From a virus: DNA of 21,819 nucleotides. This document shows, piece after piece, positions 2,894-17,174 of this stretch. The stretch lies in the IMG/VR virus record IMGVR_UViG_3300021961_008141, positions 1-21,819 of that record; one strand, given 5' to 3'. The translations under genes were made by a program, and so were the position numbers. Positions within the stretch are counted from its first letter, which is position 1. Every line of letters begins with the position of its first letter. The notes under the pieces were generated by a model that made no database searches, was not told the DNA's origin, and saw only the letters and a program-made list of their open reading frames with translations.

Positions 2894-2922
2894 TTGACTA
2901 TATACAGTCAAACACTTATAAT
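2894..2922 (+). promoter_or_regulatory. Strong sigma-70-like promoter with spacer dyad
   Basis: TTGACT (2894-2899), a 17-nt spacer and TATAAT (2917-2922) form a near-consensus promoter about 25 nt before the gene at 2946. An inverted repeat TTGACT/AGTCAA (2894-2899/2906-2911) with a 6-nt centre overlaps the -35 box and spacer, suggesting possible repressor binding. Confidence 0.65.
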
Positions 2923-2945: not shown

Positions 2946-3161
2946 ATGTCTCTGATCGAAAAATTCAAGAAGGATGTTAGCACTTTACGTTCTGCTGCTG
3001 ACGGGGATATCTACCTTGATGTAAAGAGTCCAAAACTTTATAAGAAAGTTCGTCGCTATTATGAAAATGAGGGCGTCGTGTTTTCTGGAGATGTCCTTGA
3101 TGACTATGAAATGCTGATGGATTATCTCTATCAAGACCTTCAAACTATTGAGGTTGCATAA
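2946..3161 (+). CDS. Small cyanophage-type hypothetical protein
   Basis: This 71-residue soluble, mixed-charge protein starts MSLIEKFKKDVSTLRSAADG and continues with KSPKLYKKVRRYYENEGVVF and an acidic helix. No catalytic motif is visible. It is the first gene after the strongest promoter in the window and its stop overlaps the next ATG (TAATG), so the two are co-expressed, probably early. Function is unknown. Confidence 0.75.
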   Translation: MSLIEKFKKDVSTLRSAADGDIYLDVKSPKLYKKVRRYYENEGVVFSGDVLDDYEMLMDYLYQDLQTIEVA

Positions 3162-3406
3162 TGCAAGTTGTCAAAAAACCCACTGTTCTTATGGAGCGGT
3201 TTCCTTATCGTTATGTTCAGGTTGGTAAGTTGGAAATCAACGGAATGCCTGATTGTCGCATTCAAAAGGTAGACTCCTATACTGGACGCTACCGTGATAT
3301 GTATCTCTGTGATAATGAGATGCAACTTATGACTGCTATGGAAGACCACGATTACACTTGTTGGTTGGATCCTGATAATGTACCTGCTTATGTAAAGGAG
3401 GATTGA
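3161..3406 (+). CDS. Small hypothetical protein, 81 residues
   Basis: The protein contains MERFPYRYVQVGKLEINGMP, suggesting a small beta-rich fold, and an acidic C-terminus (WLDPDNVPAYVKED). There is no signal peptide or span. It is translationally coupled to the preceding gene by a 1-nt overlap. An AAGGAGG ribosome-binding site for the next gene lies in its last codons. The family is unrecognised. Confidence 0.75.
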   Translation: MQVVKKPTVLMERFPYRYVQVGKLEINGMPDCRIQKVDSYTGRYRDMYLCDNEMQLMTAMEDHDYTCWLDPDNVPAYVKED

Positions 3407-3409
3407 TTG

Positions 3410-3547
3410 ATGTTCATTTCAGAAAACGTAACAGTAACGATTATAGCATTATTGATTGCGTCGATTGGATGGTACTATCTTTATTTGCTATCTATCGAGG
3501 GTGCCTTCAGTGTCACCGACGATGACGAAGACACGGATGGTCTATAA
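3410..3547 (+). CDS. Tiny membrane protein with acidic tail
   Basis: This 45-residue protein has a strong AAGGAGG (3395-3401) before ATG 3410. It has one hydrophobic span (about VTVTIIALLIASIGWYYLYLL) and a very acidic C-terminus (SVTDDDEDTDGL). Nothing identifies a function. It is the last of the 2946-3547 operon; the next 240 bases hold no clear gene. Confidence 0.65.
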   Translation: MFISENVTVTIIALLIASIGWYYLYLLSIEGAFSVTDDDEDTDGL

Positions 3548-3738
3548 CAGTACTGGTGGAGTCATCCTCATTATGCCCGTGATGGAGACACGATAAAAAC
3601 CCTGGTCGGGATGGTCAAATGACCCTCGGAGTTTACTGCCTCTCTCAAGGGCAGTTGGTGCGGATGGGATAACTCCCGCCTGGTTTCCAATTTCCAGTCA
3701 AAGAATTGGTGGCGAGCCTGCAATACCTACAGAGAATT
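3548..3738 (+). ncRNA. Candidate structured RNA or leader before the glycan operon
   Basis: No convincing ORF is present. Local complementarity is dense: CGTG/CACG (3578-3581/3589-3592), GGTC/GACC (3613-3616/3621-3624), ACTGCC/GGCAGT (3635-3640/3650-3655), GGGA/TCCC (3666-3669/3674-3677), and a compound helix CGCC...CCAATT/AATTGG...GGCG (3677-3692/3704-3714). The block ends in a terminator at 3739. Structured RNAs such as the manA and wcaG motifs are reported from marine T4-like phages, the latter near sugar genes; I cannot match either consensus by eye. It could be a small RNA or a cis-acting element for the operon. Confidence 0.5.
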
Positions 3739-3765
3739 GAGAGGTTGCATAAACCTCTCTTTTTT
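3739..3765 (+). terminator. Rho-independent terminator before the glycan operon
   Basis: GAGAGGTT (3739-3746) pairs with AACCTCTC (3752-3759), loop GCATA, followed by six T. It ends the upstream transcript or RNA element before the 18-gene operon. Confidence 0.8.
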
Positions 3766-3773
3766 AGTATAAT
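3745..3773 (+). promoter_or_regulatory. Possible promoter overlapping the terminator
   Basis: A perfect TATAAT (3768-3773) lies 17 nt after a poor -35, TTGCAT (3745-3750), inside the terminator loop. The sequence TATAATAATAAA also resembles a late promoter. It lies about 20 nt before the first glycosyltransferase. Its class is undecided. Confidence 0.4.
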
Positions 3774-3791
3774 AATAAAAAAGCAATCCTT

Positions 3792-4463
3792 ATGAAATTT
3801 CTAACATTTCTAAACACCGGATGTCTTGATATCTGTTTGAATATGTTGAAGTCCGCTGAGAATGTGGGCATCAATATGGACGACTTTATAATCGCTTGCA
3901 TGGATGAGGATGTTTATAAGTCCTTAATTCTTAAGGGTTATAAATCAGCATTTCTCTACATGAATCAAGAATTGAGAGAATATCAAGATTGGACATTCAA
4001 CCAGAACAGTGGATTTAGAAATATTGTTAGACATAAATGGAAGATCATCGATGGGGTCCATAAGGAGCATCCTAATTTGATGTGGGTTGATACTGATATT
4101 GTATTCAAGGAAAACCCCGTAGATATTCTTACAGGGCACGAAGAAGTATTATTTCAGACTGATGCTCCTGGTTCCACAATCTGCACCGGATTTATAGTCT
4201 TCAATGAGACTCCAGAGTGTCGTCAGTTGGTTGCTGAGTGTGGTGCAGATGATAGTGATGATGATCAACTCATTATGAATCGCATTGCACTGAGTAAATA
4301 TAACGATCATGTTGCTTTGTTATCAGAAGATCTTTTCCCAAATGGTAATGTATACTATCAGCAAGGTAGAAAAGAGAACGCTATGATTGTTCATAATAAT
4401 TGGATGGTTGGAGTAGAAACCAAGATCAATAAGTTTAAAGAGGAAGGACTGTGGTTTATTTGA
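3792..4463 (+). CDS. GT-A glycosyltransferase, nucleotide-diphospho-sugar transferase (GT77-like)
   Basis: This 223-residue protein resembles the Nucleotid_trans (GT77-like) fold: an N-terminal nucleotide-binding region, 'GFRNIVRHKWKII' before the metal motif, then WVDTDIVF with DTD at 100-102. CTGFIVFN (131-138), DDQ (157-159) and HNNW (201-204) follow, matching the usual order in this family. It would transfer a sugar from an NDP donor using a divalent metal; donor and acceptor are unknown. It is cytosolic, without a membrane span. It is the first gene of the operon and overlaps the next by 13 nt. Members are best known from plants and other eukaryotes. Confidence 0.7.
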   Translation: MKFLTFLNTGCLDICLNMLKSAENVGINMDDFIIACMDEDVYKSLILKGYKSAFLYMNQELREYQDWTFNQNSGFRNIVRHKWKIIDGVHKEHPNLMWVDTDIVFKENPVDILTGHEEVLFQTDAPGSTICTGFIVFNETPECRQLVAECGADDSDDDQLIMNRIALSKYNDHVALLSEDLFPNGNVYYQQGRKENAMIVHNNWMVGVETKINKFKEEGLWFI

Positions 4464-5314
4464 ATCAAGACTATTTGAGACCAAAGTCTCTTACGCCAAC
4501 CTATCCTCCATATCATAAAGGTGAGTATATTGAAGAATACTTTTATAGTCACTATCAGCAGTTAGATATCAAACCAGAACGGGAGTATATTGATATCTTC
4601 TGGTCTAATATCTTTTGCAATAAGATTTGGGCTGGGCAACCTTATCCAGATTTACAGAATCTTCTCTATGAAACTCTGAGTTCTGATGGCAAGTATTTTA
4701 CAGTTTGTCAGCAAGACGATGGACCTTTTGAGGACTTCCCAGAAGATACTATGATCTTCTCTGCAGGTGGTAATCGTAAAAAAGGTAATGTGATACCTAT
4801 CCCACTGGTTTGCTCTTCTATCCCTAAAGAAACGATTCCCAATAGGGAACACAAATACTTTGCTTCCTTTATTGGTTCTAATACTTACTGGGTTAGAACT
4901 GATATGGTAAAGGCATTCAGAGGTAAGGATGATTGTCTTGTGAAAGCAGGTAACTGGGATATTAACGTGGGTGAAGAGAAACTGAATAACTTCCTTGATG
5001 TTATGTCTGCTTCTAAGTTCTCCCTGTGCCCCAGAGGATACGGGACAACAAGTTTCAGACTCTACGAATCCTTTCAACTCGGAACAGTTCCAGTTTATAT
5101 TTCAGACGATCATGCACTTCCTTGGTCTGATGAACTGGATTGGGAAGAGTTTTGTGTTATAATTGATGATGAGAACATTGGGAATACCTACGATATTCTC
5201 AAGAGTATTTCAGACGATACATACAATGAGATGTTGAAGAAAGGTCAAGAACTCTATCAAGATTACTTCTCTCTTCAAGGAGTCTTTGAAAATATTATCA
5301 AAAGGGTGCAATGA
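4451..5314 (+). CDS. Exostosin-family (GT47-like) glycosyltransferase
   Basis: This 287-residue GT-B-type protein has the exostosin signature in its second half: ASFIGSNTYWVRTDM (about 138-152), SKFSLCPRGYGTTSFRLYES (188-207) and GTVPVYISDDHALPW (211-225). The Pro-Arg-Gly and Arg-Leu-(Tyr)-Glu residues are those conserved in the NDP-sugar site of GT47 enzymes. The start is GTG 4451 with AGGAAGG just upstream; the TTG at 4460 is an alternative. It lacks the membrane anchor of animal exostosins. Together with its neighbours it is a candidate for an early step of phage glycan assembly. ATGA overlap with the next gene. Confidence 0.8.
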   Translation: MVYLNQDYLRPKSLTPTYPPYHKGEYIEEYFYSHYQQLDIKPEREYIDIFWSNIFCNKIWAGQPYPDLQNLLYETLSSDGKYFTVCQQDDGPFEDFPEDTMIFSAGGNRKKGNVIPIPLVCSSIPKETIPNREHKYFASFIGSNTYWVRTDMVKAFRGKDDCLVKAGNWDINVGEEKLNNFLDVMSASKFSLCPRGYGTTSFRLYESFQLGTVPVYISDDHALPWSDELDWEEFCVIIDDENIGNTYDILKSISDDTYNEMLKKGQELYQDYFSLQGVFENIIKRVQ

Positions 5315-6060
5315 AAAAAGTTCTTCTAGTCTTTGGGTCTTATGGAGATCAAAGGCAACAATTCTTTGACACTTATATGTCTCCAAGAAATCAAGAGTAT
5401 GCTGATAAACACGGTTTTGAGTATCTTGAGTTAAAGGATAACCTGTATAAGTATCGTGGTAATTATACCTGGTTGAAGTTTACTATCCTTGAGCAAATGC
5501 TTGAGGAAGGTTATGTGACCGACGGTGATATTGTTACTCATTTGGATGCAGATATGTGCATTGCAAATACTGAGATTCCATATGAGACTAGTAAATCATT
5601 CTCGTATGCAATTGATTCTGGTAATACTCATTGTATGGGTAACTATTCTATCAAAGTCAATGAGTGGTCACGTCAACTTGTTGCCAATATTCTTTCGGAA
5701 GATAGATATCAAGCATTGAATGATGTGGTGTCTAGACATGAACGATTTGGGTATGTGAATAGTTTCTGGCATGAATTTAGAGAGCAAGCATCCTGGTATT
5801 CCCTTGCGGGGATTAAGAGACATTCTGACGAATCTTTTTGGAATCTTCCTGATTATGGTTGGCACTCTGATAAAACAGAGTGGACCATCTATTCTTTAGA
5901 AGATCTTTATGCCCATGTTGACATTCTTCCTACTGCTTGGAATGTGACAGAAATGGAAGAAGAATCTAGTTGTGAGTTTTTAATTAATGAAGTAAAAAGA
6001 GAAGATGTCATTATTCGCCACTTTGCTGGAGGGCAACAGTGGAGAAAGGAGTGGTTTTAA
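5311..6060 (+). CDS. GT-A glycosyltransferase, GMA12/MNN10 (GT34)-like
   Basis: This 249-residue protein has LVFGSYGDQR at the N-terminus, YTWLKFTILEQML (52-64) and the metal-binding HLDADM with DAD at 79-81, followed by a mostly acidic C-terminal half. RHFAGGQQW (236-244) resembles the late His-(x)-Ala-Gly motif of GT34 enzymes. It is expected to transfer a hexose or pentose from an NDP-sugar. Assignment to GT34 rather than another GT-A family is tentative. Start ATG 5311 overlaps the preceding stop by four bases. Confidence 0.6.
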   Translation: MKKVLLVFGSYGDQRQQFFDTYMSPRNQEYADKHGFEYLELKDNLYKYRGNYTWLKFTILEQMLEEGYVTDGDIVTHLDADMCIANTEIPYETSKSFSYAIDSGNTHCMGNYSIKVNEWSRQLVANILSEDRYQALNDVVSRHERFGYVNSFWHEFREQASWYSLAGIKRHSDESFWNLPDYGWHSDKTEWTIYSLEDLYAHVDILPTAWNVTEMEEESSCEFLINEVKREDVIIRHFAGGQQWRKEWF

Positions 6061-6062
6061 GT

Positions 6063-6347
6063 ATGAATTTTCTATTTAAAATTAGAGTTTTTTTGTGGTC
6101 AATTGTATCCGAAATTGAATATAAATTGTATCCATATAAAAATAGTGAACCTGAAGTTGACTATTTTTATATTGTTAAAAATGATGCTACCGGTGAAGAG
6201 TATACTATATTAGAATGGATTAAAAATTTTGATAATAGACTCGAAAAAATTGAAGATAATTATCTCCACATAAACTCAAATCTTAATAAAGTTGATAAAC
6301 TGGATCTAGATCTTTTGGATTTAAAAAATAGGATATATAAAAAATGA
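6063..6347 (+). CDS. Small unknown protein within the glycan operon
   Basis: This 94-residue protein has a hydrophobic/aromatic N-terminus (MNFLFKIRVFLWSIVSEI), an acidic middle, and a C-terminal Leu/Asn/Lys-rich helix with heptad character (about 60-94), suggesting a membrane-associated coiled coil. An AAGGAG lies about 10 nt before ATG 6063; the longer in-frame start at 6039 would overlap the previous gene more. It could tether glycosyltransferases or act as an assembly factor, but no family is recognised. This stretch looks more AT-rich than the genes on either side. Confidence 0.55.
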   Translation: MNFLFKIRVFLWSIVSEIEYKLYPYKNSEPEVDYFYIVKNDATGEEYTILEWIKNFDNRLEKIEDNYLHINSNLNKVDKLDLDLLDLKNRIYKK

Positions 6348-6982
6348 ACAATCAGAAATTAGCAATGAATTTAGTAGAAGTTGATACTGACCTTACAATG
6401 GTCAATGAGGGGCATGTTGGTGGATTTATCATTCAAAAAGATCCTGCAACATATACGCCAAAACTTTGGAAATATATTTGCGAAAATTTTAATATCAAAA
6501 GTATTTTAGATATTGGATGTGGAATGGGACATGCTATAGGGGAGTTTAATAAGTATTGTGATGAAGTTGTTGGAGTTGATGGATCCAAATATGTAGTTGA
6601 AAATTCACTATTTACTGAACAAATTTTTTATCATGATTTTGCTGTTGGAACTTTAGAAACAGAAGATAGATATGATCTATGTTGGTCTTGCGAATTTGTC
6701 GAACACGTTGATGAAAGGTATAGAGATAATTTCTTAGAAGTATTTTCTTATGCCAAATATTTGGCAATTACTTATGCTGAACCTGGACAACCTGGGCATC
6801 ATCACGTAAATTGTCAACCAAAAGAATATTGGATTGAACATCTCAAAAGATATGGATTTGAATATGATGAAAAAATTACAAGTCAACTCAGAGAAGTTGC
6901 ATATGAAGATGCTATCGAAATAAACCCAAAATATAAGGATAATCACTTTAATCTGAGAGGACTCTTCTTCATTAAAAAATGA
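6344..6982 (+). CDS. SAM-dependent methyltransferase (class I)
   Basis: This 212-residue Rossmann methyltransferase carries motif I SILDIGCGMGHA (53-64), the acidic motif II VVGVDGS (75-81) and a motif IV-like DLCWSCEFVEHV (111-122). A distinctive AEPGQPGHHHVN (145-156) is followed by EYWI...GFEY. It probably methylates a sugar or glycan hydroxyl, given its neighbours. It is clearly paralogous to the gene at 12659: the same CEFVEHV, the same AEPGQ.GHHHVN and the same RGLFF end. ATGA overlaps at both ends. Confidence 0.8.
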   Translation: MNNQKLAMNLVEVDTDLTMVNEGHVGGFIIQKDPATYTPKLWKYICENFNIKSILDIGCGMGHAIGEFNKYCDEVVGVDGSKYVVENSLFTEQIFYHDFAVGTLETEDRYDLCWSCEFVEHVDERYRDNFLEVFSYAKYLAITYAEPGQPGHHHVNCQPKEYWIEHLKRYGFEYDEKITSQLREVAYEDAIEINPKYKDNHFNLRGLFFIKK

Positions 6983-7716
6983 AAAAAATTAAAAATTTTA
7001 CGATTTGTTTACACTGTGGGTGTAGTAAAGATATTGTCGATGCTCAAATGGAAGCATTGTCTCCTCTAAATTTAAAGTATAAGGTGACCTGGAATAATAG
7101 GATTGATAGGCATCCAGAAATGTATCAGTCCTATTCAGAACTTATAAATCACTCCATTGCCACTTCTAATGATGAATGGGTCATTCTAATTAATGATAGA
7201 ACGCATCCGACAGTAGATGAAATAGAAAAAATGCTCTATTTGTTGGAAAATGGATATTCCTGCGTTTTTTTGTATAGTGTTGGATTTATGGGATTCTCTA
7301 AAGAATTGATCCGTAAAGTAGGATGGTGGGATCAAAGATTTACCTATGGTGGATGGGAAGATCGTGATTGGGTTTTTAGAATAAAGAAGAAAAATCTTTC
7401 ACTATATGAAAGTATAGAGAGTACATATGATATGAGTTGGAAGTCTCCTTTGAATGTTCCTGGTGCTGTCTTGTCCGGTCAGTTCTGGGAAAAGAAATAT
7501 GATATATCTTCCGAAATCGTATATCAAAAATTGGATGAGGAGAGTTATCCTGAGTGGGATAAGACATTGGGTGATGGTAGGGAAGATATTAGTTCTTCCT
7601 GGTTATCTTGGAATTACTCACAACTAAATATTATGTACGATCCTAGGTATAAACCTGGATCTGGTTTATCTGGATCATCTATTCTAAGAAATAGAGAAAT
7701 TGTGGAGAATTTTTAA
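6979..7716 (+). CDS. GT-A type glycosyltransferase (GT2-like)
   Basis: This 245-residue protein begins with a GT2-like strand pattern (FTICLHCGCSKDIVDAQMEA). It has WVILINDRTHP, where NDR (72-74) stands in the place of the DxD motif, and GFMGFSKELI followed by YGGWEDRDWVFRI with the acidic WEDRD (126-130), like the catalytic base region of galactosyltransferase-type GT-A enzymes. The metal-motif deviation (NDR rather than DxD) is notable and may mean altered metal use. Substrates are unknown. Start ATG 6979 overlaps the previous stop. Confidence 0.6.
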   Translation: MKKIKNFTICLHCGCSKDIVDAQMEALSPLNLKYKVTWNNRIDRHPEMYQSYSELINHSIATSNDEWVILINDRTHPTVDEIEKMLYLLENGYSCVFLYSVGFMGFSKELIRKVGWWDQRFTYGGWEDRDWVFRIKKKNLSLYESIESTYDMSWKSPLNVPGAVLSGQFWEKKYDISSEIVYQKLDEESYPEWDKTLGDGREDISSSWLSWNYSQLNIMYDPRYKPGSGLSGSSILRNREIVENF

Positions 7717-8334
7717 ATGCATTCAATTGATAGTATAGAAGAAGGCATTTTAAACTCCAAAGAATTTCCTGCAGATACTTTTCCTAAACCTTGCGGTAGA
7801 GATACATTTTATAGAAAATGTATGACTTTAGTTAAAGAAAGAACGGGATTATTTTTAGAGTTTGGAGTATGGACAGGTGGGACTATAAATTTCCTTTCTT
7901 CATTAAACCCGGATAAAAAGTTTTATGGGTTTGATTCATTTGAGGGACTTCCAGAAAATTGGGAAGGTATTGTTAATAAAGGACATTTTAAAACAGATAT
8001 TCCTAAGGTTAATGATAATGTTGAATTGGTGGTAGGATGGTTTGACCAAACTCTAGATAAATTTTTAGAGGAACATGATGAAACAATATCTTTCGTCCAT
8101 TTGGATGCTGATCTATATTCTTCAATTGATTATGTTTTAAAAAAAATTGAATCTAAAATAGAAGATAAGTGTGTCTTTATATTTGACGATTTTCTAGAAT
8201 TTCCAAATTATAAAGATCATAGTATAAAGTGCTTCTTAGAATTCTTGGAAAGAACTAATTACACATATACTCCAGTAGGACATGTGAAAGAAGTCTTCTC
8301 CAGATGCGCCTTCATTATCAACGTAAATAATTGA
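7717..8334 (+). CDS. TylF/macrocin-O-methyltransferase family protein
   Basis: This 205-residue class I methyltransferase has LFLEFGVWTGGTINFL (45-60) as the SAM loop, FYGFDSFEGLPENW (69-82), FVHLDADLYSS (126-136) and VFIFDDF (153-159). The Asp residues at 130, 132 and 157-158 match the Mg-binding residues of TylF-type sugar O-methyltransferases. It probably O-methylates a deoxy- or hexose unit of the glycan, which can cap chain ends. It begins immediately after the previous stop. Confidence 0.82.
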   Translation: MHSIDSIEEGILNSKEFPADTFPKPCGRDTFYRKCMTLVKERTGLFLEFGVWTGGTINFLSSLNPDKKFYGFDSFEGLPENWEGIVNKGHFKTDIPKVNDNVELVVGWFDQTLDKFLEEHDETISFVHLDADLYSSIDYVLKKIESKIEDKCVFIFDDFLEFPNYKDHSIKCFLEFLERTNYTYTPVGHVKEVFSRCAFIINVNN

Positions 8335-8338
8335 GAAC

Positions 8339-9298
8339 TTGAGAATACTATTCATAACAACCCAAAATCCAACGAAACAGGGAGACTTATTAGAAGTTTC
8401 TCTGCTTCATGGTTTGAGAACAGTTCTTGGCGAAGACTGTGTAGATTATCCAAGAAAGAAAATAATGTATCATGATTTTTCTGATACTCCGAAAGATACA
8501 TTACACGGAAGGGGATTTAGTTTATTAACAACACCAATTCAAGACATTGAAGATAGAGACATATTCAAACAAAAATTTGATTATGTAATTTATGGTGATG
8601 GTCATATGTATGGGGAAGTTCCAGAAATTGAAGGTGTAAATGAACTTGCAGATGGTAATGTATGGATCATTGATGGGCACGACTTATATGGCAGTGCTCC
8701 TAGAATGATTTCATATAATGATGAAGTGGTTATAGGATCTCAATTCACAAATTGTTTTAAGAGAGAACTTATAGAGTCTGATGATGAGAGTGTATATCCT
8801 ACTGGATTTGGTATTCCAGAAGAACGAATAAGAGAAGTTGATTTTTCAATTAAAGATCAACTCTACCAAAAGACTGCTCCCTCCTATTCTTTGTTTGAAG
8901 ATGCTGCAGATATGGGAGGAGGATTTTCTCATCATAAGTTTACTGTAGAGGATGACTATTATAATGATCTTTCTAGATCTTGGTTTGGGTTAACATGCAA
9001 GAAAGGTGGGTGGGATTGTCTTAGACACTATGAAATTATAGCGGCTGGTTCTTTACTTCTTTTCAGAGACTATCACAATAAACCAAGACTATGTTCCCCT
9101 CAAGAACTTCCTTGTTATGTTTACTCCTCAAAAGAACAACTATATAGTTTGATGTCCGAGTTAGTAGTGGAAAACAGACCAACATACAAATACTTACGAA
9201 TGCTTGAAAAGCAACGAGAATGGTTGTATAATGTAGGCACTACTTCTGCTAGAGCAAATAGTATCCTAAACACCTTACAAAAAGAAAATGATCATTGA
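8339..9298 (+). CDS. GT-B glycosyltransferase, CgeB-like
   Basis: This 319-residue protein opens with MRILFITTQNPTKQGDLLEV, typical of a GT-B N-terminal domain. Its second domain ends with GGWDCLRHYEIIAAGSLLLF (223-242), matching the nucleotide-sugar-binding Glu/Ala-Gly region of CgeB/GT1-2-like proteins. The start is TTG 8339, because MRILFITTQ begins exactly there and no better start lies nearby. There is no membrane span. The specific sugar is unknown. It overlaps the next gene by 11 nt. Confidence 0.6.
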   Translation: MRILFITTQNPTKQGDLLEVSLLHGLRTVLGEDCVDYPRKKIMYHDFSDTPKDTLHGRGFSLLTTPIQDIEDRDIFKQKFDYVIYGDGHMYGEVPEIEGVNELADGNVWIIDGHDLYGSAPRMISYNDEVVIGSQFTNCFKRELIESDDESVYPTGFGIPEERIREVDFSIKDQLYQKTAPSYSLFEDAADMGGGFSHHKFTVEDDYYNDLSRSWFGLTCKKGGWDCLRHYEIIAAGSLLLFRDYHNKPRLCSPQELPCYVYSSKEQLYSLMSELVVENRPTYKYLRMLEKQREWLYNVGTTSARANSILNTLQKENDH

Positions 9299-9971
9299 TA
9301 AAAATCTCTCCAAGATGAATACAAACCATCATCTTGCTTTTGAATATCTGGAATCTAAATTTACTAAGGAAGAAAAAAATTATAGAGTTATAGATATTGG
9401 TGGAGGAGAAAATTCGTGGGTTGGTGATTGGGCGACTCATCTTGTCGATAAATTTGTGGATCCAAAAAATTCACTTAAGTCTTTTGGAGCACAAGTTTTT
9501 AGCGTTGATATTGATGATACAAAAGAATGGGATCTTGTTTTGGAAGATGTAGAAAAAAACGGTTTGTTCGATTTTGCTGTTTGCTCTCATACTCTTGAAG
9601 ACGTTAACAATCCTCAAGTCGCTTGCAGAATGATTAATCGAATTGCAAAATCTGGGTATATTAGTATGCCATCAAAGTATGCTGAACTGGCAACCTTTGA
9701 AGGAAAATATGGACTTAGTTATTGCGGGTATCATCATCATAGATGGATCTATCAAATTAGAAATGATGTCTTGATTGGTGTTCCGAAAATGAACTTCCAT
9801 GATAATGTTGAGTTTGAATTCAATCAATCAGCAGCTGTTCATTCTGAAATAGCGTTTTTATGGGAAGATAACTTTGATTATGAATTCTTGTATCCACATC
9901 AAATGCTAGATAATAGAGAAGGTCCAGATAGAATTGCTGAGTTATTTGAAGATGACGATCTTATTCTCTGA
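9288..9971 (+). CDS. Class I SAM methyltransferase, third type in the cluster
   Basis: This 227-residue protein has motif I RVIDIGGGENSW (33-44), FSVDID (71-76) and a post-II region FDFAVCSHTLEDVNNP (94-109), like Methyltransf_11-type enzymes. A later CGYHHHRWIY segment may form part of the acceptor pocket. It probably methylates a sugar precursor or glycan. It is distinct from the paired methyltransferases at 6344 and 12659. ATG 9288 lies inside the previous gene. Confidence 0.72.
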   Translation: MIIDKNLSKMNTNHHLAFEYLESKFTKEEKNYRVIDIGGGENSWVGDWATHLVDKFVDPKNSLKSFGAQVFSVDIDDTKEWDLVLEDVEKNGLFDFAVCSHTLEDVNNPQVACRMINRIAKSGYISMPSKYAELATFEGKYGLSYCGYHHHRWIYQIRNDVLIGVPKMNFHDNVEFEFNQSAAVHSEIAFLWEDNFDYEFLYPHQMLDNREGPDRIAELFEDDDLIL

Positions 9972-9980
9972 GGTAAACAA

Positions 9981-10955
9981 ATGAGCAAAGTATTAATGAC
10001 AGGTGGACTTGGGTTCATCGGTTCTCACTGTATCGACAAATGGAAATCGGTTGGTTGGGATGTATGTGCTGTAGATAACATGTCTACTAATGCTATTCCT
10101 ACAGATCATCCTCTCGTAGATAATGTGGAAGTTATTCAGAAAAATATTCTGGATATTGATTATAAAACCTTACCGAAGGTAGATCTTGTCCTTCATCTTG
10201 CTTCTCCTGTTGGACCAGTTGGTGTCCTTAAACATTCTGGCAATATGGCAAGAATTATCCTTGATGATATTTACTGGGCAATCAATACAGCTAAGCATAA
10301 CAACTGCCCACTAGTATTCATCTCAACTTCTGAGATATACGGTCATCGTGATGAGAAGAGTTATCTTGAAGAAGAAAGTGATAAAGTTCTTCATGGAGAA
10401 TTCACGGTTAGAAATGAATATGCCATTGCTAAACTTTTATCAGAAATTGTTTTAACTAATCAGGCAAAGATTAATCCAGATTTTAGATATCAAATTATTA
10501 GACCATTCAATGTGACTGGTAAGTATCAACTTCCAGATGGTGGATTTGTTCTTCCCAGATTTGTTAATCAGGCATTAAATGGAGAAGACATTACTGTTTA
10601 TTATGATGGTCTTCAACTTAGAGCCTTCACTTGGGTTAAAGACATTGTTGATGGCATCTATTTAACTTCTATTGCAGATGATAAAGATTGGAACGAAGAG
10701 TGGAATATTGGAAATGAAAGGAATGAAAGAACAATTCTTTATCTTGCAGAAAGAGTGAAGGAAATTACAGGGACAGAATCTGAGATTGTCCATGTTGATC
10801 CAGTAGAACTTCATGGGCCACTTTTTGCAGAGGCGCCAGAAAAAATTCCAAATAGTGAAAAAATAAAAGAAAGACTTGGGTGGGCACCAACCAAAGGAGT
10901 TGACGAAGTTATTCGAGAAGTGGTAGAATACTACCAAAGTGGAGTTTGTGTTTAA
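9981..10955 (+). CDS. Extended-SDR NAD-dependent sugar epimerase/dehydratase
   Basis: This 324-residue enzyme has the NAD-binding TGGLGFIGS (7-15), a catalytic Ser/Thr region FISTSEIYG (113-121) and the YxxxK pair Y147/K151 (YAIAK). The substrate domain carries RPFNVTGKYQ and a C-terminal LGW. The order matches GalE/RmlB/UXS-type enzymes acting on UDP-, dTDP- or GDP-sugars; the exact reaction cannot be told. The next gene, a sugar-dehydrogenase-like protein, overlaps by one base (TAATG), so the two may act in sequence. Confidence 0.8.
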   Translation: MSKVLMTGGLGFIGSHCIDKWKSVGWDVCAVDNMSTNAIPTDHPLVDNVEVIQKNILDIDYKTLPKVDLVLHLASPVGPVGVLKHSGNMARIILDDIYWAINTAKHNNCPLVFISTSEIYGHRDEKSYLEEESDKVLHGEFTVRNEYAIAKLLSEIVLTNQAKINPDFRYQIIRPFNVTGKYQLPDGGFVLPRFVNQALNGEDITVYYDGLQLRAFTWVKDIVDGIYLTSIADDKDWNEEWNIGNERNERTILYLAERVKEITGTESEIVHVDPVELHGPLFAEAPEKIPNSEKIKERLGWAPTKGVDEVIREVVEYYQSGVCV

Positions 10956-11671
10956 TGAAGATCGGAATTGTTGGATATGGTGAGATAGGAAGTAGTATCG
11001 CCAAAGTATATGAGTCATTTGAAGGATTTGATGTAAGGGTTGTAGATCCATATCAGAATCGTAATGATGATATTGAGGGTGTTGAAATTCTCAATATTTG
11101 TATTCCCTTTATTGAAAACTTTGTAAAGGTTGTTCAGGATTATATTTCACAGGCCAATCCACGATACACTATTGTTCACTCTACGGTTGCTCCTGGAACT
11201 ACCGAACTTGTTGGTGGTAAAGTATGCCATTCTCCTATGAGAGGTCTTCACCCAAATCTTGATCTGGGTATGAAGACCTTCTTGAAGTATATTGGTCCAG
11301 TAGACCAAGAAGCAGCATCTTTGTATCAGGAGCATCTGAATAGTCTAGGAATCAAAACACATATTTGTAAGAATAGTAAGACTACCGAATATGCTAAGTT
11401 GTTAGACACGACTTACTATGGTGTCTGTATTGCATTCCATGCCGATGTTGCTCAGGTATGTGAGAATGAGGAACTTGAATTTGATGAAGTTATGACCTTG
11501 TTCAATCAAAGTTATAATGAAGGATATACTGAACTTGGTAAACCCAATGTGGTTCGACCAGTTCTTTATGCAACTAAAAAGATTGGAGGACACTGTGTGG
11601 TTCCCAATGCAAAAATCCTTAAGGATTATATGAACACTAAAACAGTCCAATCTATTCTTGATTATGAGTAA
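10955..11671 (+). CDS. Compact UDP-glucose/UDP-ManNAc dehydrogenase-like protein
   Basis: This 238-residue protein has the Rossmann glycine motif GIVGYGEIGS (4-13), STVAPGTTE (76-84, as in UDP-sugar dehydrogenases), an internal helix with TTEYAKLLDTTYY (143-155) including a conserved-looking Lys148, and KIGGHCVVPNAKIL (209-222), where Cys214 matches the catalytic Cys of WecC/UGD enzymes (GGHC). Full enzymes are about 400 residues with a C-terminal domain; that domain is missing. It may be an intact minimal oxidoreductase or have another role. ATG 10955 is chosen over the upstream TTG. Confidence 0.65.
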   Translation: MKIGIVGYGEIGSSIAKVYESFEGFDVRVVDPYQNRNDDIEGVEILNICIPFIENFVKVVQDYISQANPRYTIVHSTVAPGTTELVGGKVCHSPMRGLHPNLDLGMKTFLKYIGPVDQEAASLYQEHLNSLGIKTHICKNSKTTEYAKLLDTTYYGVCIAFHADVAQVCENEELEFDEVMTLFNQSYNEGYTELGKPNVVRPVLYATKKIGGHCVVPNAKILKDYMNTKTVQSILDYE

Positions 11672-12662
11672 AAAGAAAATAGCATTTCATAGTTATCAAT
11701 TGGGTGATCGTGGAACTGAGATTTGTCTTTATAAGTATGCAAAATACAATAGAGAAATTCTAGGAAATGAATCTATAATTATTTCTACCAGTTCTAGACC
11801 AACTCCGTCATTGGATAGATTTGAAGATTTTGAAACTATTCTTTATCCCGATGTTTGGATCAATGATGGTAAGAATGATTCGTTGAGATCTACCTTAGAA
11901 GATATTTGTGAGAAGAATCGAGTTGATGTCTTCTATGCAATTAAAGGTGGAGAAGATGATGGATTTATGCCAACCAATACAAAGAGACTGGCTCATTGTA
12001 TTTTTAGAATGGATCAACCGCATGGAGATGTATACTCTGGTGTGTGTAAATATATCTCCGAAAAGCACGGAGGAATTCACCCATACGTTCACCATATCCT
12101 TGAAAAGGAAGCACCTCATATTGAGGATGATTTTAGAGAAGAGTTTGGAATTCCTAAGGATGCATTAGTTCTTGGTAGGCACGGTGGGCACGATACATTC
12201 AGTCTAGGATTTACTCACGGTGCTATCATATCTGCCTTAGAAAATAGAAGCGACCTTTGGTTTGTGTTTCTCAATACGAGACCATTTGTAAAACACGAAA
12301 GAGTAATATATCTTCCGTGGACTATGGATGAAGAATACAAAGCAAAGTTTGTGAATACTTGCGATGCTATGATGCACGCTAGATATGATGGAGAAATTTT
12401 TAGTTTATCAACTGCCGAATTTTCTATTCGCAATAAACCGGTTATAACTTGGAATCCCCCAAATCCACCAAGTCACTATGATACCGGTCACATCAGTGTT
12501 ATGGGTGAAGACGCCATCTATTACGAAGATGCAAATGATCTATTCTTTATTTTAACCAATTTGGATAAGAAAGAAATTAATAATTTGGAGTGGGGTAAAT
12601 ACTGTGGTGACTATACTGCAGAAAATGTAATGAATGAATTTAAGGAGGTTTATTTGAAATGA
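11664..12662 (+). CDS. GT4-like (GT-B) glycosyltransferase
   Basis: This 332-residue enzyme has an N-terminal domain (IAFHSYQLGDRGTEI), a second-domain start FGIPKDALVLGRHGGHDTFS (161-180), typical of GT4 proteins, and an EX7E motif from E244 to E252 (EIFSLSTAE) within DAMMHARYDGEIFSLSTAE. It is predicted to transfer a sugar with retention, donor unknown. ATG 11664 overlaps the preceding stop by 8 nt and is preferred over TTG 11658. An AAGGAGG at its 3' end serves the next gene. Confidence 0.75.
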   Translation: MSKKKIAFHSYQLGDRGTEICLYKYAKYNREILGNESIIISTSSRPTPSLDRFEDFETILYPDVWINDGKNDSLRSTLEDICEKNRVDVFYAIKGGEDDGFMPTNTKRLAHCIFRMDQPHGDVYSGVCKYISEKHGGIHPYVHHILEKEAPHIEDDFREEFGIPKDALVLGRHGGHDTFSLGFTHGAIISALENRSDLWFVFLNTRPFVKHERVIYLPWTMDEEYKAKFVNTCDAMMHARYDGEIFSLSTAEFSIRNKPVITWNPPNPPSHYDTGHISVMGEDAIYYEDANDLFFILTNLDKKEINNLEWGKYCGDYTAENVMNEFKEVYLK

Positions 12663-13333
12663 CAGTAGAAACTTTAGATCAAACGCACGGACCCGATATT
12701 ATTGAGGGTCATCTTGGAGGATGCTCTATTGGTGGTGATGGTGGTACATATTATCCCATCATGTGGAAAAAAATGATTGAGAAGTATTCCGTAAAAACTG
12801 TACTTGATATCGGATGTGGTAGAGGATATTCTAGTAAATATTTCCAATCAATTGGTTGCGATATTCTTGGAGTTGATGGAAGCACCAAAGCAGGAGAAAT
12901 GTCACTAATACCAGAACATTTTTTGTTAAATGATTATGAAGGAGGACCTGCTCTTTCTAGATCTGAAATCGAATACAATGAAAAACCAATTAAAGATTTT
13001 GTTTTTGATTTGTGTTGGTGTTGTGAATTTGTGGAGCATGTTTGGGAAGAATATTCTCAAAACTTTATTGACGATTTTAAAGGTTGCAAATATGTTGCTA
13101 TGACATTTGCCGAGCCAGGTCAAGGTGGTCATCATCATGTTAATGAACAACCAGAAGAATATTGGATCAAAAAACTAGAGGCAAATGGGTTCGAGTATTT
13201 GATAGAAGAAACTGAAGAATTGAGGAGATTTGCTTCTGATGATGCAGATGAAAGGATGAAGATTCCTAATGTTCCATACTTTATACCTCACTTCGTTCAT
13301 AGAGGATTGTTCTTTAAAAATAAGGATGTTTGA
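12659..13333 (+). CDS. SAM-dependent methyltransferase, paralogue of the 6344 gene
   Basis: This 224-residue protein has LDIGCGRG (49-56), LGVDGS (70-75), FDLCWCCEFVEHV (116-128), AEPGQGGHHHVN (151-162), EYWI (167-170) and a final RGLFFKNK. These blocks line up with the gene at 6344, so the two arose by duplication or parallel acquisition and diverged. It may methylate a different position or sugar. AAGGAGG (12642-12648) lies 10 nt before ATG 12659. It is followed by the heptose kinase with a one-base overlap. Confidence 0.82.
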   Translation: MTVETLDQTHGPDIIEGHLGGCSIGGDGGTYYPIMWKKMIEKYSVKTVLDIGCGRGYSSKYFQSIGCDILGVDGSTKAGEMSLIPEHFLLNDYEGGPALSRSEIEYNEKPIKDFVFDLCWCCEFVEHVWEEYSQNFIDDFKGCKYVAMTFAEPGQGGHHHVNEQPEEYWIKKLEANGFEYLIEETEELRRFASDDADERMKIPNVPYFIPHFVHRGLFFKNKDV

Positions 13334-14280
13334 TGATCATTTCAAGTTGCCCTTTGAGGATCTCTCTTTTTGGGGGATCCACCGACAATCCATATTTTAT
13401 TGAAAAATATGGTAGAGGATCGGTAATTAGTTTTGCCAGCAATTTGAAGACTTATATAAGTCTTCACGAAGATAAATTAGGATATAATATCCAGGGTAAA
13501 AAATATATTATTAATTACTCTAGACGTGAAGAAACAAAATTTATATCTGATATTCAAAATGAATTAGTTCGTATAGTTCTAAACTATTTCGATTGTCTCC
13601 CAATTACAATATCAATGTTAAGTGATGCTTATTCACAGGGTAGTGGACTGGCTTCCTCTTCATCTTATATAATTTCGTTGATTAAATCTATTTCTTTATA
13701 TAAAGAAATTAATATGTCAGATAATGAAATATGCGAATTGGCATTCCTGTTGGAGCAAGAAATAAATCCATATTGTGGATATCAAGATCCATATGGTTGT
13801 GGTGTTGGGGGATTTAAAAGAATTGATTTTGAGAAGTCTGGTAATATTAAATATAATTTTTTATCGACAGATTTTTTTAAACATTATGATGCTCATTTAA
13901 TTTTTACGGGCATTACTAGAAATTCTAAAATTATACTCAAAGATGTAACATCCAATATTGACAAATCACTTCCCCTTTTAGATATCGTTGACAAAGCTCA
14001 TAAATCTCTTTACGATAGAGACTATGATGTGGTTTTGGAATTGATGTTGGATAGTTGGAAGCAAAAAAAGAATACAAGCTCTTTAATTGCCGAAAATAAA
14101 GTTATCCGCGAAATAGATGAAGAACTTACTTACAATGATACTGTGTTGTCCCATAAGTTGTGTGGTGCAGGTAACGGTGGATTTTTTCTAACATTTTCCA
14201 AACCAAATACCTTGAAAATTTCGCACAAGTCGATTAAAATAAACGTAGAGTCTAATGGTGTGATTGGAAAAATTTTATGA
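13333..14280 (+). CDS. hddA: GHMP kinase, heptose 7-phosphate kinase (HddA)-like
   Basis: This 315-residue GHMP kinase carries motif 1 PLRISLFGGSTD (7-18), motif 2 GSGLASSSSY (103-112), GYQDPYGCGVGGFK (149-162) with Asp152, and motif 3 CGAGNGG (277-283). The 'PLRISLFGGSTD' and 'QDPYGCGVGG' forms are those of D-glycero-alpha-D-manno-heptose-7-phosphate kinase (HddA), which phosphorylates C1 using ATP. The adjacent GmhA-like isomerase and phosphatase/nucleotidyltransferase support a heptose role. Fucokinase- or galactokinase-type substrates remain possible. ATG 13333 overlaps the preceding stop (TGATG). Confidence 0.8.
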   Translation: MIISSCPLRISLFGGSTDNPYFIEKYGRGSVISFASNLKTYISLHEDKLGYNIQGKKYIINYSRREETKFISDIQNELVRIVLNYFDCLPITISMLSDAYSQGSGLASSSSYIISLIKSISLYKEINMSDNEICELAFLLEQEINPYCGYQDPYGCGVGGFKRIDFEKSGNIKYNFLSTDFFKHYDAHLIFTGITRNSKIILKDVTSNIDKSLPLLDIVDKAHKSLYDRDYDVVLELMLDSWKQKKNTSSLIAENKVIREIDEELTYNDTVLSHKLCGAGNGGFFLTFSKPNTLKISHKSIKINVESNGVIGKIL

Positions 14281-14780
14281 ACCCATTTAAAGAGTATATT
14301 GATGTTCTTCAATGTGCCCATATGGGCAACGAATTTGAAAAGTTTCAAGAGGCATATGATTCTCATGCAAGAATAATAATATTGGGAAATGGTGGAAGTA
14401 ATTCTATCGCTTCGCACATTTCTCAGGATTATATGAAATTTCATGGTAAGAAAGTATCTATTCTTTCAGATCCATCTATGCTAACAATGCTCACCAATGA
14501 CTTTGGATATGATAATGCCTATCAGAAGTTTTTAGAGTATTATGTTGAAGAAGATACTCTTGTAATCATTATGAGCTCTGGCGGAGAATCTAAAAATATT
14601 TTGAATTGTTTAGTTTGGTGTGAAGAAAACTGTATTGATTATGGAATTCTGACCGGATTTTCTCCTGATAACACAATCAGGAGAAGAGCAACAAATGCTT
14701 TATGGAATTATTATATTGCCAGTGAGGACTATGGTGTGGTAGAATGTGTTCATCAAATCTTTCTTCATGGTGTTGTATGA
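14277..14780 (+). CDS. gmhA: SIS-domain sedoheptulose-7-phosphate isomerase (GmhA-like)
   Basis: This 167-residue protein has LGNGGSNSIASHISQDY (36-52), MSSGGESKNIL (99-109) with the serines that bind the sugar phosphate, and EDYGVVECVHQIFLH (150-164), whose His/Gln/His residues match the C-terminal catalytic segment of GmhA. It would convert sedoheptulose 7-phosphate to D-glycero-D-manno-heptose 7-phosphate, the substrate of the upstream kinase. It is somewhat shorter than typical bacterial GmhA. ATGA overlaps both neighbours. Confidence 0.85.
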   Translation: MNPFKEYIDVLQCAHMGNEFEKFQEAYDSHARIIILGNGGSNSIASHISQDYMKFHGKKVSILSDPSMLTMLTNDFGYDNAYQKFLEYYVEEDTLVIIMSSGGESKNILNCLVWCEENCIDYGILTGFSPDNTIRRRATNALWNYYIASEDYGVVECVHQIFLHGVV

Positions 14781-15499
14781 GATATTGTTTTGATATTGAT
14801 GGAACTCTTTGCGATACTCCTAACGATGAAAACGGAAAACCAGATTATTTAAATGCTAAACCATTTCCATATATGGTCGAGCAAGTAAATAGTCTGTATA
14901 ATGATGGGCATTACATTATTATGCAAACTGCCAGAGGAAAAGGTTCTGGTATCGATCATACTGAGTTGACTAAAAAACAACTTAGGGAATGGGGATTTAA
15001 TTATCACGAATTGTTCCCAATGTTTTGTAAACCAACCGCAGACATCTTCATTGATGATAAGGGGGAAAATATTGAGAGTTGGAAAAGAAATCAACCACAA
15101 GTAAGAGGAATAATTGCAGGATCGTTTGACATAATACATCCCGGATATGCTAGGATGTTTAAAGAATCCAAGTCTTATTGCAATCATCTTACAATCGCTC
15201 TTCACGAAAATCCTTCAATCGATAGACCAAAAAAAATACCTCCTATTCATACAATTGAAGAAAGAAAAGAAATTTTAATGTCTATTAAATATATTGATGA
15301 CGTTGTAGTTTATCAAAAAGAACATGAACTATATCAATGTTTGAAAAGTGGCAATTATCACGTTCGATTTCTTGGCGATGATTATATGGATTGTTCTTAT
15401 ACTGGAGATGAATTGGACATAAAGATAGTTTATATTAATAGAAATCATGATTATTCTACAACAGAATTGAAAAGGCAAATCGTTAAATCTTGGAGGTAA
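14777..15499 (+). CDS. HAD phosphatase fused to a cytidylyltransferase-like domain
   Basis: This 240-residue two-domain protein begins with a HAD domain (1-105): DIDGT (6-10, nucleophile Asp6 and acid Asp8), TARG (51-54), Lys85 and IDD (92-94). A nucleotidyltransferase domain (108-240) follows: GIIAGSFDIIHPGYARM (111-127), containing the HxGH-type motif as HPGY (121-124), and a C-terminal YSTTELKRQI. HldE-C, TagD and related enzymes use this fold to join NTP to a sugar or alditol phosphate. With HddA and GmhA the obvious role is removal of the 7-phosphate and formation of NDP-heptose. The ATG at 14777 is set by the HAD start; the longer frame is rejected. Confidence 0.78.
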   Translation: MRYCFDIDGTLCDTPNDENGKPDYLNAKPFPYMVEQVNSLYNDGHYIIMQTARGKGSGIDHTELTKKQLREWGFNYHELFPMFCKPTADIFIDDKGENIESWKRNQPQVRGIIAGSFDIIHPGYARMFKESKSYCNHLTIALHENPSIDRPKKIPPIHTIEERKEILMSIKYIDDVVVYQKEHELYQCLKSGNYHVRFLGDDYMDCSYTGDELDIKIVYINRNHDYSTTELKRQIVKSWR

Positions 15500-15502
15500 A
15501 GA

Positions 15503-16396
15503 ATGAAATCTTTAGTAACGGGTGGAGCAGGATTCATTGGGTCTCACATTGTTGATGAACTCATTGAAATCGGGCATGAAGTCATTGTTATTGACAATGA
15601 GAGTGCTGAATCAAATGAAGAGTTCTATTGGAATGATAAGGCACAAAATTACAAGTATGATATTCGCGACTATGAAAAGACAAGACCTCTTTATGAAGGT
15701 GTTGATTATGTTTTTCATACTGCCGCAGAAGCAAGAATTCAACCTGCTATTTTGAATCCCATTGAAGCAGTAAGTATTAATTGTGTGGGCACGGTAACCG
15801 TTCTTCAGTGCGCTCGCGAGGCAGGTGTAAAGAAATTAATGTATTCTTCTACTTCCTCCGGATACGGATTTAATGAACCACCCAATGATGAAACTCAGAG
15901 AGATGACTGTCTGAATCCATATTCAGTATCTAAAGTTGCTGGTGAAAAACTTTGCTCAATGTATACCAGTCTATTTGGTCTAAGGACTGTTACGTTTAGG
16001 TATTTCAACGTTTATGGTGAAAGGTCGCCCGTCAGCGGTCAATATGCTCCAGTAATCGGCATCTTCTTGCGTCAGCGAGGAGACAATGAATCTTTGACCA
16101 TAGTTGGTGATGGTGAGCAGCGTAGAGACTTTACTCACGTTTCTGACGTTGTTCAGGCAAACATTCTTGCGGCAACTAAGGAAGTTGATGAGGAATCCTA
16201 TGGTAAACTGTATAATGTTGGTAATGGGTCAAACTACTCCATTAATGAAATTGCAAACGCCATATCCAAAAATCAAACCAATATACCTCCGCGAATTGGT
16301 GAAGCAATGACAACTCTTGCAGATAACAGTAGGTTAAAGACAACCTTTGGATGGGAACCTAAAGTAAATTTAATGGATTGGATTTCTGAACAATGA
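15503..16396 (+). CDS. Extended-SDR nucleotide-sugar epimerase (GalE/WbpP-like)
   Basis: This 297-residue enzyme has VTGGAGFIGSH (5-15), SSTSSGYG (115-122), YSVSK with Y140/K144, and RYFNVYGERSPVSGQYAPVI, the substrate loop found in UDP-GlcNAc/UDP-glucose 4-epimerases. A GGAGG ribosome-binding site lies just before ATG 15503. It directly follows the NDP-heptose enzyme, so it may epimerise or dehydrate the NDP-heptose; GalE-type action on UDP-hexoses is equally possible. It is close to full length, and its C-terminus has GWEPKVNLMDWI, common to this family. Confidence 0.82.
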   Translation: MKSLVTGGAGFIGSHIVDELIEIGHEVIVIDNESAESNEEFYWNDKAQNYKYDIRDYEKTRPLYEGVDYVFHTAAEARIQPAILNPIEAVSINCVGTVTVLQCAREAGVKKLMYSSTSSGYGFNEPPNDETQRDDCLNPYSVSKVAGEKLCSMYTSLFGLRTVTFRYFNVYGERSPVSGQYAPVIGIFLRQRGDNESLTIVGDGEQRRDFTHVSDVVQANILAATKEVDEESYGKLYNVGNGSNYSINEIANAISKNQTNIPPRIGEAMTTLADNSRLKTTFGWEPKVNLMDWISEQ

Positions 16397-17100
16397 ATCT
16401 TATTATAGAATATTTCAATTCTCTTAATCATATGAGAAATGGAGAACTTCTTTATTGTCTCCATCAAAATCTTGGAAATAATTTGATTGATGCTGTGTAT
16501 CTTTTTATGGAAGAAGATACAGAACTTTATTTTGATTCTCCAAAAATTAAAAAAGTTATTAGAGATACAAGACCTACCTATCAAGAAATTTTTGAATTTT
16601 GTAATGAAAATTTAAAAGATCAAATATGCATTGTATCCAATGCCGATATTATTTTTGATGATACTCTTAGATATTTTAAGAGTATTAAAATGAATAAGCA
16701 ATTTTATGCTTTAAGTAGATGGGAAATATCTACTGGTGATGGTAAAAACTGGGAGATTGAACCGTATGATAATGCAGCATCTCAAGATTGTTGGATTTTC
16801 AATACACCCATTCCAACATCTGATGGCATGAACTATACTATGGGTGTTCCTGGATGCGATAATAAGATCACATATCAAATGAGAGAACTTGGGTATACAT
16901 GCAGAAATCCTGGAAAGAAAGTCGTTACCATTCATTTCCATCCAACAAACTGGAGAACCTATAGTCCTCAAGATGATAGAGTTCCGGGTCCATATCTTCT
17001 TGTTTCTCCTGTGGATAATTTTACAGGAACGCCTAATCACATTGATATTGATGGATTTGATGAGTATGGTAGACCTTTTAGGAAGGTTTCATCAGATTAG
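16393..17100 (+). CDS. Probable GT-A glycosyltransferase
   Basis: This 235-residue protein has CIVSNADIIFDD (79-90), where NAD replaces DxD, SQDCWIF (130-136), GVPGCDNKI (151-159) and IHFHPTNWR (180-188), a sequence of motifs like those of small GT-A enzymes found in viruses and bacterial capsule clusters. The last gene of the operon, it overlaps the preceding epimerase by four bases and is followed by a strong terminator. Its donor is unknown. Confidence 0.55.
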   Translation: MNLIIEYFNSLNHMRNGELLYCLHQNLGNNLIDAVYLFMEEDTELYFDSPKIKKVIRDTRPTYQEIFEFCNENLKDQICIVSNADIIFDDTLRYFKSIKMNKQFYALSRWEISTGDGKNWEIEPYDNAASQDCWIFNTPIPTSDGMNYTMGVPGCDNKITYQMRELGYTCRNPGKKVVTIHFHPTNWRTYSPQDDRVPGPYLLVSPVDNFTGTPNHIDIDGFDEYGRPFRKVSSD

Positions 17101-17111
17101 CAAACGCTAAC

Positions 17112-17139
17112 AAAAGGGGGGGCATATGCCCCCTTTTTT
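17112..17139 (+). terminator. Terminator ending the glycan operon
   Basis: AAAAGGGGG (17112-17120) pairs with CCCCCTTTT (17129-17137), and T continues to 17139. The near-symmetrical A/T flanks would let it act on both strands. It lies 11 nt after the last operon gene. Confidence 0.85.
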
Positions 17140-17143
17140 GATA

Positions 17144-17149
17144 TATAAT
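17144..17149 (+). promoter_or_regulatory. Possible -10 element before ferredoxin
   Basis: A perfect TATAAT lies 25 nt before ATG 17175, just after the terminator. No recognisable -35 box is at the usual spacing, so this could depend on a phage factor or be chance. Without it, ferredoxin would rely on read-through. Confidence 0.35.
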
Positions 17150-17174
17150 AATGTGCAATTGAGCATTTTTACTT

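Follow-up and report, generated by a model that had tools for sequence, protein, structure and literature searches.

The structured block that the original prediction had placed at 3548–3766 of the window (the whole stretch of phage DNA analysed here, 21,819 nt) was resolved as a single predicted RNA at 3529–3714, an array in which four H-type pseudoknot modules stand in tandem (A1, A2, B1 and B2, in the order AABB). The wcaG RNA of Rfam (RF01761) represents only the last two of these modules, B1 and B2. We interpreted the array as the structured 3′ end of an early orf71-gp206-orf45 transcript, which it would stabilise, at the border of a gene cassette, and gave this interpretation a probability of about one half.

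The wcaG RNA itself was known. It was proposed in 2010 as a candidate riboswitch from its gene context (PMC2864571). Cyanophage annotations already include it (PMC9964418, PMC9602691, PMC10665884). No description of the modules 5′ of wcaG, the tandem arrays or the position before a promoter was found in a search of mostly open-access literature.

The block and its match to wcaG

Reading of the sequence, the list of open reading frames and a terminator search agreed that 3548–3766 holds no convincing gene and has an intrinsic terminator at its end. The compound helix described there is present as complementarity, CGCC (3677–3680) with GGCG (3711–3714) and CCAATT (3687–3692) with AATTGG (3704–3709). 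The block therefore existed as claimed, but its borders shifted, since the first module starts at 3529 and the −10 box past the terminator ends at 3773.

A search against Rfam identified RF01761 at 3627–3723 on the plus strand, with 99.3 bits against a gathering threshold of 42 and with the full model aligned (1–98 of 98). The 3′ half of the block, thought to be unexplained, thus belongs to a named family. Two known marine phage motifs had been mentioned for the block. The guess of wcaG was correct for 3627–3723; manA is absent, as RF01745 gave no match in the whole window, nor at E ≤ 5 in 3400–3900. The stretch 5′ of wcaG (3529–3626) matched no Rfam family even at E = 5, and manA and the other families were rejected for it.

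Energy folding did not set the block apart (z = −1.66; 10 of 200 shuffles were equally good). The single modules folded near chance (z from −0.03 to −0.85), and the terminator alone stood out (z −4.1). With neither block nor modules above chance, folding energy was dropped as evidence of structure, and comparison among relatives was needed instead.

Two types of pseudoknot module

Type A modules consist of a 4-bp stem, a 7-nt loop (NYGGNNN) and an A-rich tail, followed by CUGGU. Module A1 (3529–3557, plus strand) has the stem AGAC/GUCU (3529–3532/3540–3543), the loop ACGGAUG and the pseudoknot pair C3534–G3550. Module A2 (3578–3606, plus strand) has the stem CGUG/CACG (3578–3581/3589–3592), the loop AUGGAGA and the pair U3583–A3599. 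CUGGU follows in both. The model R1 scored A1 at 35.7 bits (E 1.7e-10) and A2 at 40.7 bits (E 3.9e-12), both sequences being among the 30 used to build it; the next best match in the window reached 6.7 bits. Neither is in Rfam, and the pairs of both were backed by comparison of relatives.

The two modules are joined by GUGGAGUCAUCCUCAUUAUGCC (3556–3577, plus strand), and the linker UGGUGGAGUC is common after A modules in relatives. A second linker, 3′ of A2 (3607–3628, plus strand) and likewise shared with relatives, could be read directly as a hairpin, CGGG-AU-GGUC/GACC-CUCG.

In type A, position 2 of the loop pairs with position −3 of the tail, as C-G in 42 and as U-A in 21 of 63 distinct modules, with no exception. 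In a longer subtype, loop position 5 and tail position −4 were paired in 32 of 32 (A-U, G-C or U-A); shuffles reached 24 at most. The alignment of 30 distinct modules had 95% of its cells paired and 37 two-sided changes, against 10 when shuffled and at most 8 when slid; stem pairing by itself is not independent evidence, as modules of either type were chosen partly by their stems.

In type B modules, helix a (3–4 bp) joins the letters before UUUC to a hairpin loop, and a helix b is present in addition. Module B1 with its hairpin (3629–3680, plus strand) has helix a between GAG (3629–3631) and the loop CUC, helix b CUGCC/GGCAG (3636–3640/3650–3654) and the hairpin GGG/CCC (3666–3668/3675–3677). 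Its pseudoknot complementarity was found in 68 of 101 distinct modules, and in 29 after shuffling. Module B2 (3680–3714, plus strand) has helix a CUGG/CCAG (3680–3683/3694–3697) and helix b CAAU/AUUG (3688–3691/3705–3708), followed by GUGGCG. Both modules lie in the RF01761 match.

All 360 cells in 40 distinct ungapped B2 modules were paired (100%), with 93 two-sided changes against 27 in shuffles, and both helices contributed. Helix a occurred among relatives as CUGG/CCAG, CCUG/CAGG and CCAG/CUGG; the pattern that fetched the first set had fixed CCAG in the B2 loop, and the variants were supplied by other patterns and by isolates.

The loop-tail pairing of type A and the helix a pairing of type B played no part in choosing the modules for these covariation counts. 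Relatedness inflates such counts. That the pairs are so varied, and that slid versions scored low, speaks against kinship as the whole cause. Covariation among related phages was strong for both types, as the original prediction of a conserved structured RNA implied, and a conserved short ORF that might have explained the block instead was not found. It is the covariation that shows the structure to be real.

The array agrees with wcaG in matching its full model, in the phage group and in the sugar genes downstream. It differs in a 5′ extension of 98 nt, made of two modules outside the model, in containing pseudoknots that are missing from the Rfam covariance model, and in preceding the predicted promoter of the downstream genes instead of following it.

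Arrays among related phages

A blastn search returned 46 cyanophage records with array-like DNA. Several of the matches ran past the wcaG borders, back to about 3551 (S-RIM4, 83%; S-H35, 84%). Scanning IMG/VR with a 3′-hairpin pattern gave at least 119 stretches, in which repeated modules make up the part 5′ of wcaG. The B2 pattern had no exact match in the GTDB species genomes of bacteria.

In 24 complete phage genomes, some of which had contributed sequences to the A-module model, all 33 strong A matches (in 20 genomes) lay at the wcaG locus, inside its single strong match or no more than 1.9 kb upstream of it, and none elsewhere. Syn9 carries wcaG but no A modules, and P-SSM4 and ACG-2014d lack both. 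An A-module pattern that makes no use of wcaG picked out 85 distinct loci, and the wcaG motif was within 1.6 kb in 45 of the 56 that had enough sequence. On these sequence comparisons, A1 and A2 appear to belong to the same RNA as the wcaG match.

Like wcaG, manA is a cyanophage RNA found near tRNAs, and it is present in some of the wcaG contigs. It differs in having no match in the window, and type A modules were confined to the wcaG locus in the 24 genomes. An abiF RNA was also seen near wcaG in a tRNA-rich region (L098, 2550–2586; S-CREM1, L129, 2823–2859).

The tandem arrays had mostly 2–4 modules and occupied one place per phage genome. Among 182 distinct chains of at least two modules, the commonest order was BBB (40), followed by AA (30), BB (28), AABB (27), AB (21) and ABB (20), with fewer of the rest. 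Some arrays (L110 among them) scored as two tandem wcaG copies, and others (L202, L229, L258 and L260), with one or two modules, fell below the Rfam reporting threshold. In some arrays (L001 and, by reading, L144) a third type of pseudoknot stands where B would be. In L144 it stands alone (2290–2345; GAACCC/GGGUUC and GUUGG/CCAAC), ends in UGGCGAGCCUGA, precedes a promoter-terminator and a sugar gene, and was missed by Rfam. In L188 and L235 an additional long hairpin separates a B2-like module from the terminal GUGGCG.

The variable number of modules is what would be expected of an RNA decoy whose pseudoknot repeats bind and inactivate an endoribonuclease of the host, or some other protein that binds RNA, like the type III antitoxin ToxI, itself a tandem array of H-type pseudoknots (PMC8860590). 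We regard a decoy of this kind as very unlikely. The modules of one array are unlike each other in sequence and topology, and no toxin gene of the ToxN kind was found among the neighbouring proteins that were scanned against Pfam.

Terminator, promoter and downstream genes

The array is followed by an intrinsic terminator (3739–3765, plus strand) that consists of an 8-bp stem, GAGAGGUU/AACCUCUC (3739–3759), and a T-run. A predicted promoter is embedded in it in the manner of a PeSL (3745–3773, plus strand; TTGCAT at 3745–3750, 17 nt, TATAAT at 3768–3773). As cited in PMC4503421, a PeSL joins a terminator stem-loop and an early promoter at a gene-exchange border in T4-type phages (Comeau 2014, Arbiol 2010). 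The element at 3739–3773 resembles this description in combining an early sigma70-type promoter with a terminator stem-loop at a putative exchange border, and differs in being preceded by a structured RNA array. It is the only promoter-terminator composite in the window; such composites are rare in these phage genomes (0–3 by pattern).

The arrangement was conserved. The terminator loop holds a −35 box (TTGCAT, TTGACA or TTTACA), with TATAAT 17 nt on, in 87 of 97 distinct contexts, against 0 of 97 after shuffling. In a wider sample of 188, both terminator and promoter were present in 129, the terminator only in 17 and neither in 39, and the −35/−10 spacing was 17 in 120 of 132. Where the terminator is absent, a tRNA often lies 3′ of the array. 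In L058, L059, L077 and L098 the array runs straight into a gene, with no terminator or promoter in between; the RNA thus does not form a 3′ end in every case.

The surface-sugar operon downstream (3792–17100, plus strand) encodes glycosyltransferases, a GDP-mannose dehydratase-like protein, methyltransferases, a heptose-type kinase, a SIS protein and a cytidylyltransferase. Adjacent GHMP kinase, SIS-domain and cytidylyltransferase-like genes at 13330–15499 suggest that the phage has a pathway for a nucleotide sugar of the heptose type. At the right end of the operon (17115–17150), a strong hairpin, GGGGGCATATGCCCCC, with a T-run (both near 17118–17139) and then TATATAAT, forms a terminator with a −10-like box and without a module array.

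The known tie of wcaG to exopolysaccharide or high-light genes was thus seen here, in the sugar operon downstream, and likewise in relatives. The block does lie upstream of an operon, as had been noted, but a role as operon leader is not supported, since the promoter-bearing terminator intervenes. This would place the RNA in the preceding transcript, unless polymerase reads through. The same separation in 87 of 97 contexts speaks against the 5′ UTR location proposed for wcaG and against its Rfam type, cis-reg, which is an annotation of function and not of the sequence model. Judged by sequence, with read-through possible, the polysaccharide genes that wcaG was proposed to control would mostly have their promoter downstream of it.

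This position makes a metabolite riboswitch, or another 5′-UTR switch of the downstream genes, unlikely, for all that the gene-context proposal of 2010 and the surface-sugar gene that comes first downstream in most viral contigs favour one. In isolates, hli, tRNA-Gly, 2OG oxygenases and tail fibre genes also lie downstream. Complementarity between array and terminator arm was the same as with arms swapped among loci when G-U pairs were counted (8.00 against 8.00), and marginally higher with Watson-Crick pairs only (5.24 against 5.03). Attenuator or antiterminator pairing with the terminator arm was rejected, as permuting the terminators among 79 loci gave just as much complementarity with G-U counted.

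The main rival is a processive antitermination RNA (put- or EAR-like), in which the transcribed array alters polymerase to pass the terminator and read the long sugar operon. Polysaccharide operons elsewhere use antitermination (EAR, RfaH/ops). The array stands directly 5′ of the terminator in most contexts, a long operon (13 kb) of the polysaccharide kind follows, and both the conserved unpaired sequence and the arrays without terminators would be compatible. We consider this doubtful, since the operon owns a promoter inside the terminator, plus-strand terminators within it are few and weak, and arrays precede tRNA, hli and tail-fibre genes too.

The preceding early unit

The unit upstream of the array starts with a predicted sigma70-type promoter, TTGACT-17-TATAAT (2894–2922, plus strand; 11 of 12 consensus matches). 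A promoter of at least 11/12 before orf71 was conserved in 66 of 77 distinct loci, compared with 15 of 300 random windows. The first gene, orf71 (2946–3161, plus strand; phrog_552, function unknown), is upstream in about 97 of 116 loci, and the gp206 homologue (3161–3406, plus strand; phrog_481, function unknown) in 96 of 116. A perfect TTGACA-17-TATAAT promoter (12/12) also occurs at 2727–2755, directly before tRNA-Pro.

A 45-aa ORF (3410–3547, plus strand; ATG at 3410, listed from TTG at 3407), with no family match, ends at a TAA (3545–3547) inside module A1. The first module started within 30 nt of the stop of an ORF of at least 45 aa in 81 of 102 distinct arrays, with offset peaks at −2 and +19; of random positions, 14% lay as near to such a stop. 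The stop codon is often within the conserved UAA of the module, as in the window.

In L229, L244 and L258 the array is preceded by a tRNA, not a gene. There, one type A module lies between tRNA-like sequence and a promoter or promoter-terminator (in L258 no terminator was seen by eye), without a gene stop, and scanning detected no Rfam-level wcaG in L229 and L258.

Since gp206 occurs in 461 phage records and array-like DNA in 46, the upstream genes do not need the array. The predicted fold of gp206 (pLDDT 85) had no PDB relative at E ≤ 0.001, which left the fold comparison uninformative on gp206 as an array-binding protein.

A proposed cassette border

The first downstream genes belong to 27 families; in metagenomic contigs, most of them encode sugar enzymes. 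In 177 locus pairs with non-homologous downstream genes, identity was 0.92 in the array, 0.79 in the promoter-terminator and 0.61 beyond, dropping to background directly past the composite. We read the array and the promoter-terminator as a putative fixed left border, at which surface-sugar cassettes would be exchanged. An earlier paper had remarked on LPS clusters close to hli03 and tRNAs (PMC3037559).

The same drop in identity would be expected of a sequence kept mainly as DNA, a shared recombination site for cassette exchange with RNA structure secondary, and PeSL cassettes are cited in PMC4503421 as mediating shuffling in T4-type phages. This was the least probable of the readings weighed. 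Compensatory changes preserve the pairing while altering the DNA, which homology-based recombination does not explain.

Possible action of the array

The positions of the stop codons, the terminator, the promoter and the identity drop would place the array in the preceding transcript, forming its end, at the putative cassette border. Transcription from the promoter at 2894–2922 would pass the genes and the array and halt at the hairpin at 3739–3765, whose own promoter would restart it at about 3780 for the sugar operon. The pseudoknots may act on their own RNA, in the manner of REP elements or 3′UTR-derived RNAs, either by keeping exonucleases off its 3′ end or by giving rise to a small RNA that is stable. 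Where a tRNA replaces the terminator, tRNA processing would likewise leave the array at a 3′ end. Transcription of this kind, the 3′-end role and stabilisation are what we infer from the layout, and a 3′-end or small-RNA role is the simplest reading.

The REP/BIME elements of enterobacteria are intergenic structured elements able to protect the upstream mRNA. The array resembles them as a structured element between genes, and differs in consisting of pseudoknots, in having one locus per genome and in its conserved unpaired sequence.

The strictly conserved unpaired letters in the arrays (CUGGU, UGGUGCGGAUGG and GUUUC) suggest a specific binding partner, which argues against a passive shield. 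We hold it tentatively possible that the arrays are modular protein- or polymerase-binding RNAs, whose interchangeable pseudoknots (A, B and the third type) show a UGG motif in tandem, titrating a host RNA-binding protein or RNase, or modifying RNA polymerase early in infection. A CsrA-type sponge of GGA loops was dropped, as the loops vary (CUGGA, UUGGG).

If the RNA is indeed the 3′ end of the preceding transcript, and wcaG the end part of a modular array, a search for a ligand on the sugar mRNAs would target the wrong transcript. The Rfam wcaG model would be too short, and the function would be testable. The array locus would mark where cyanophages swap their surface-sugar cassettes.
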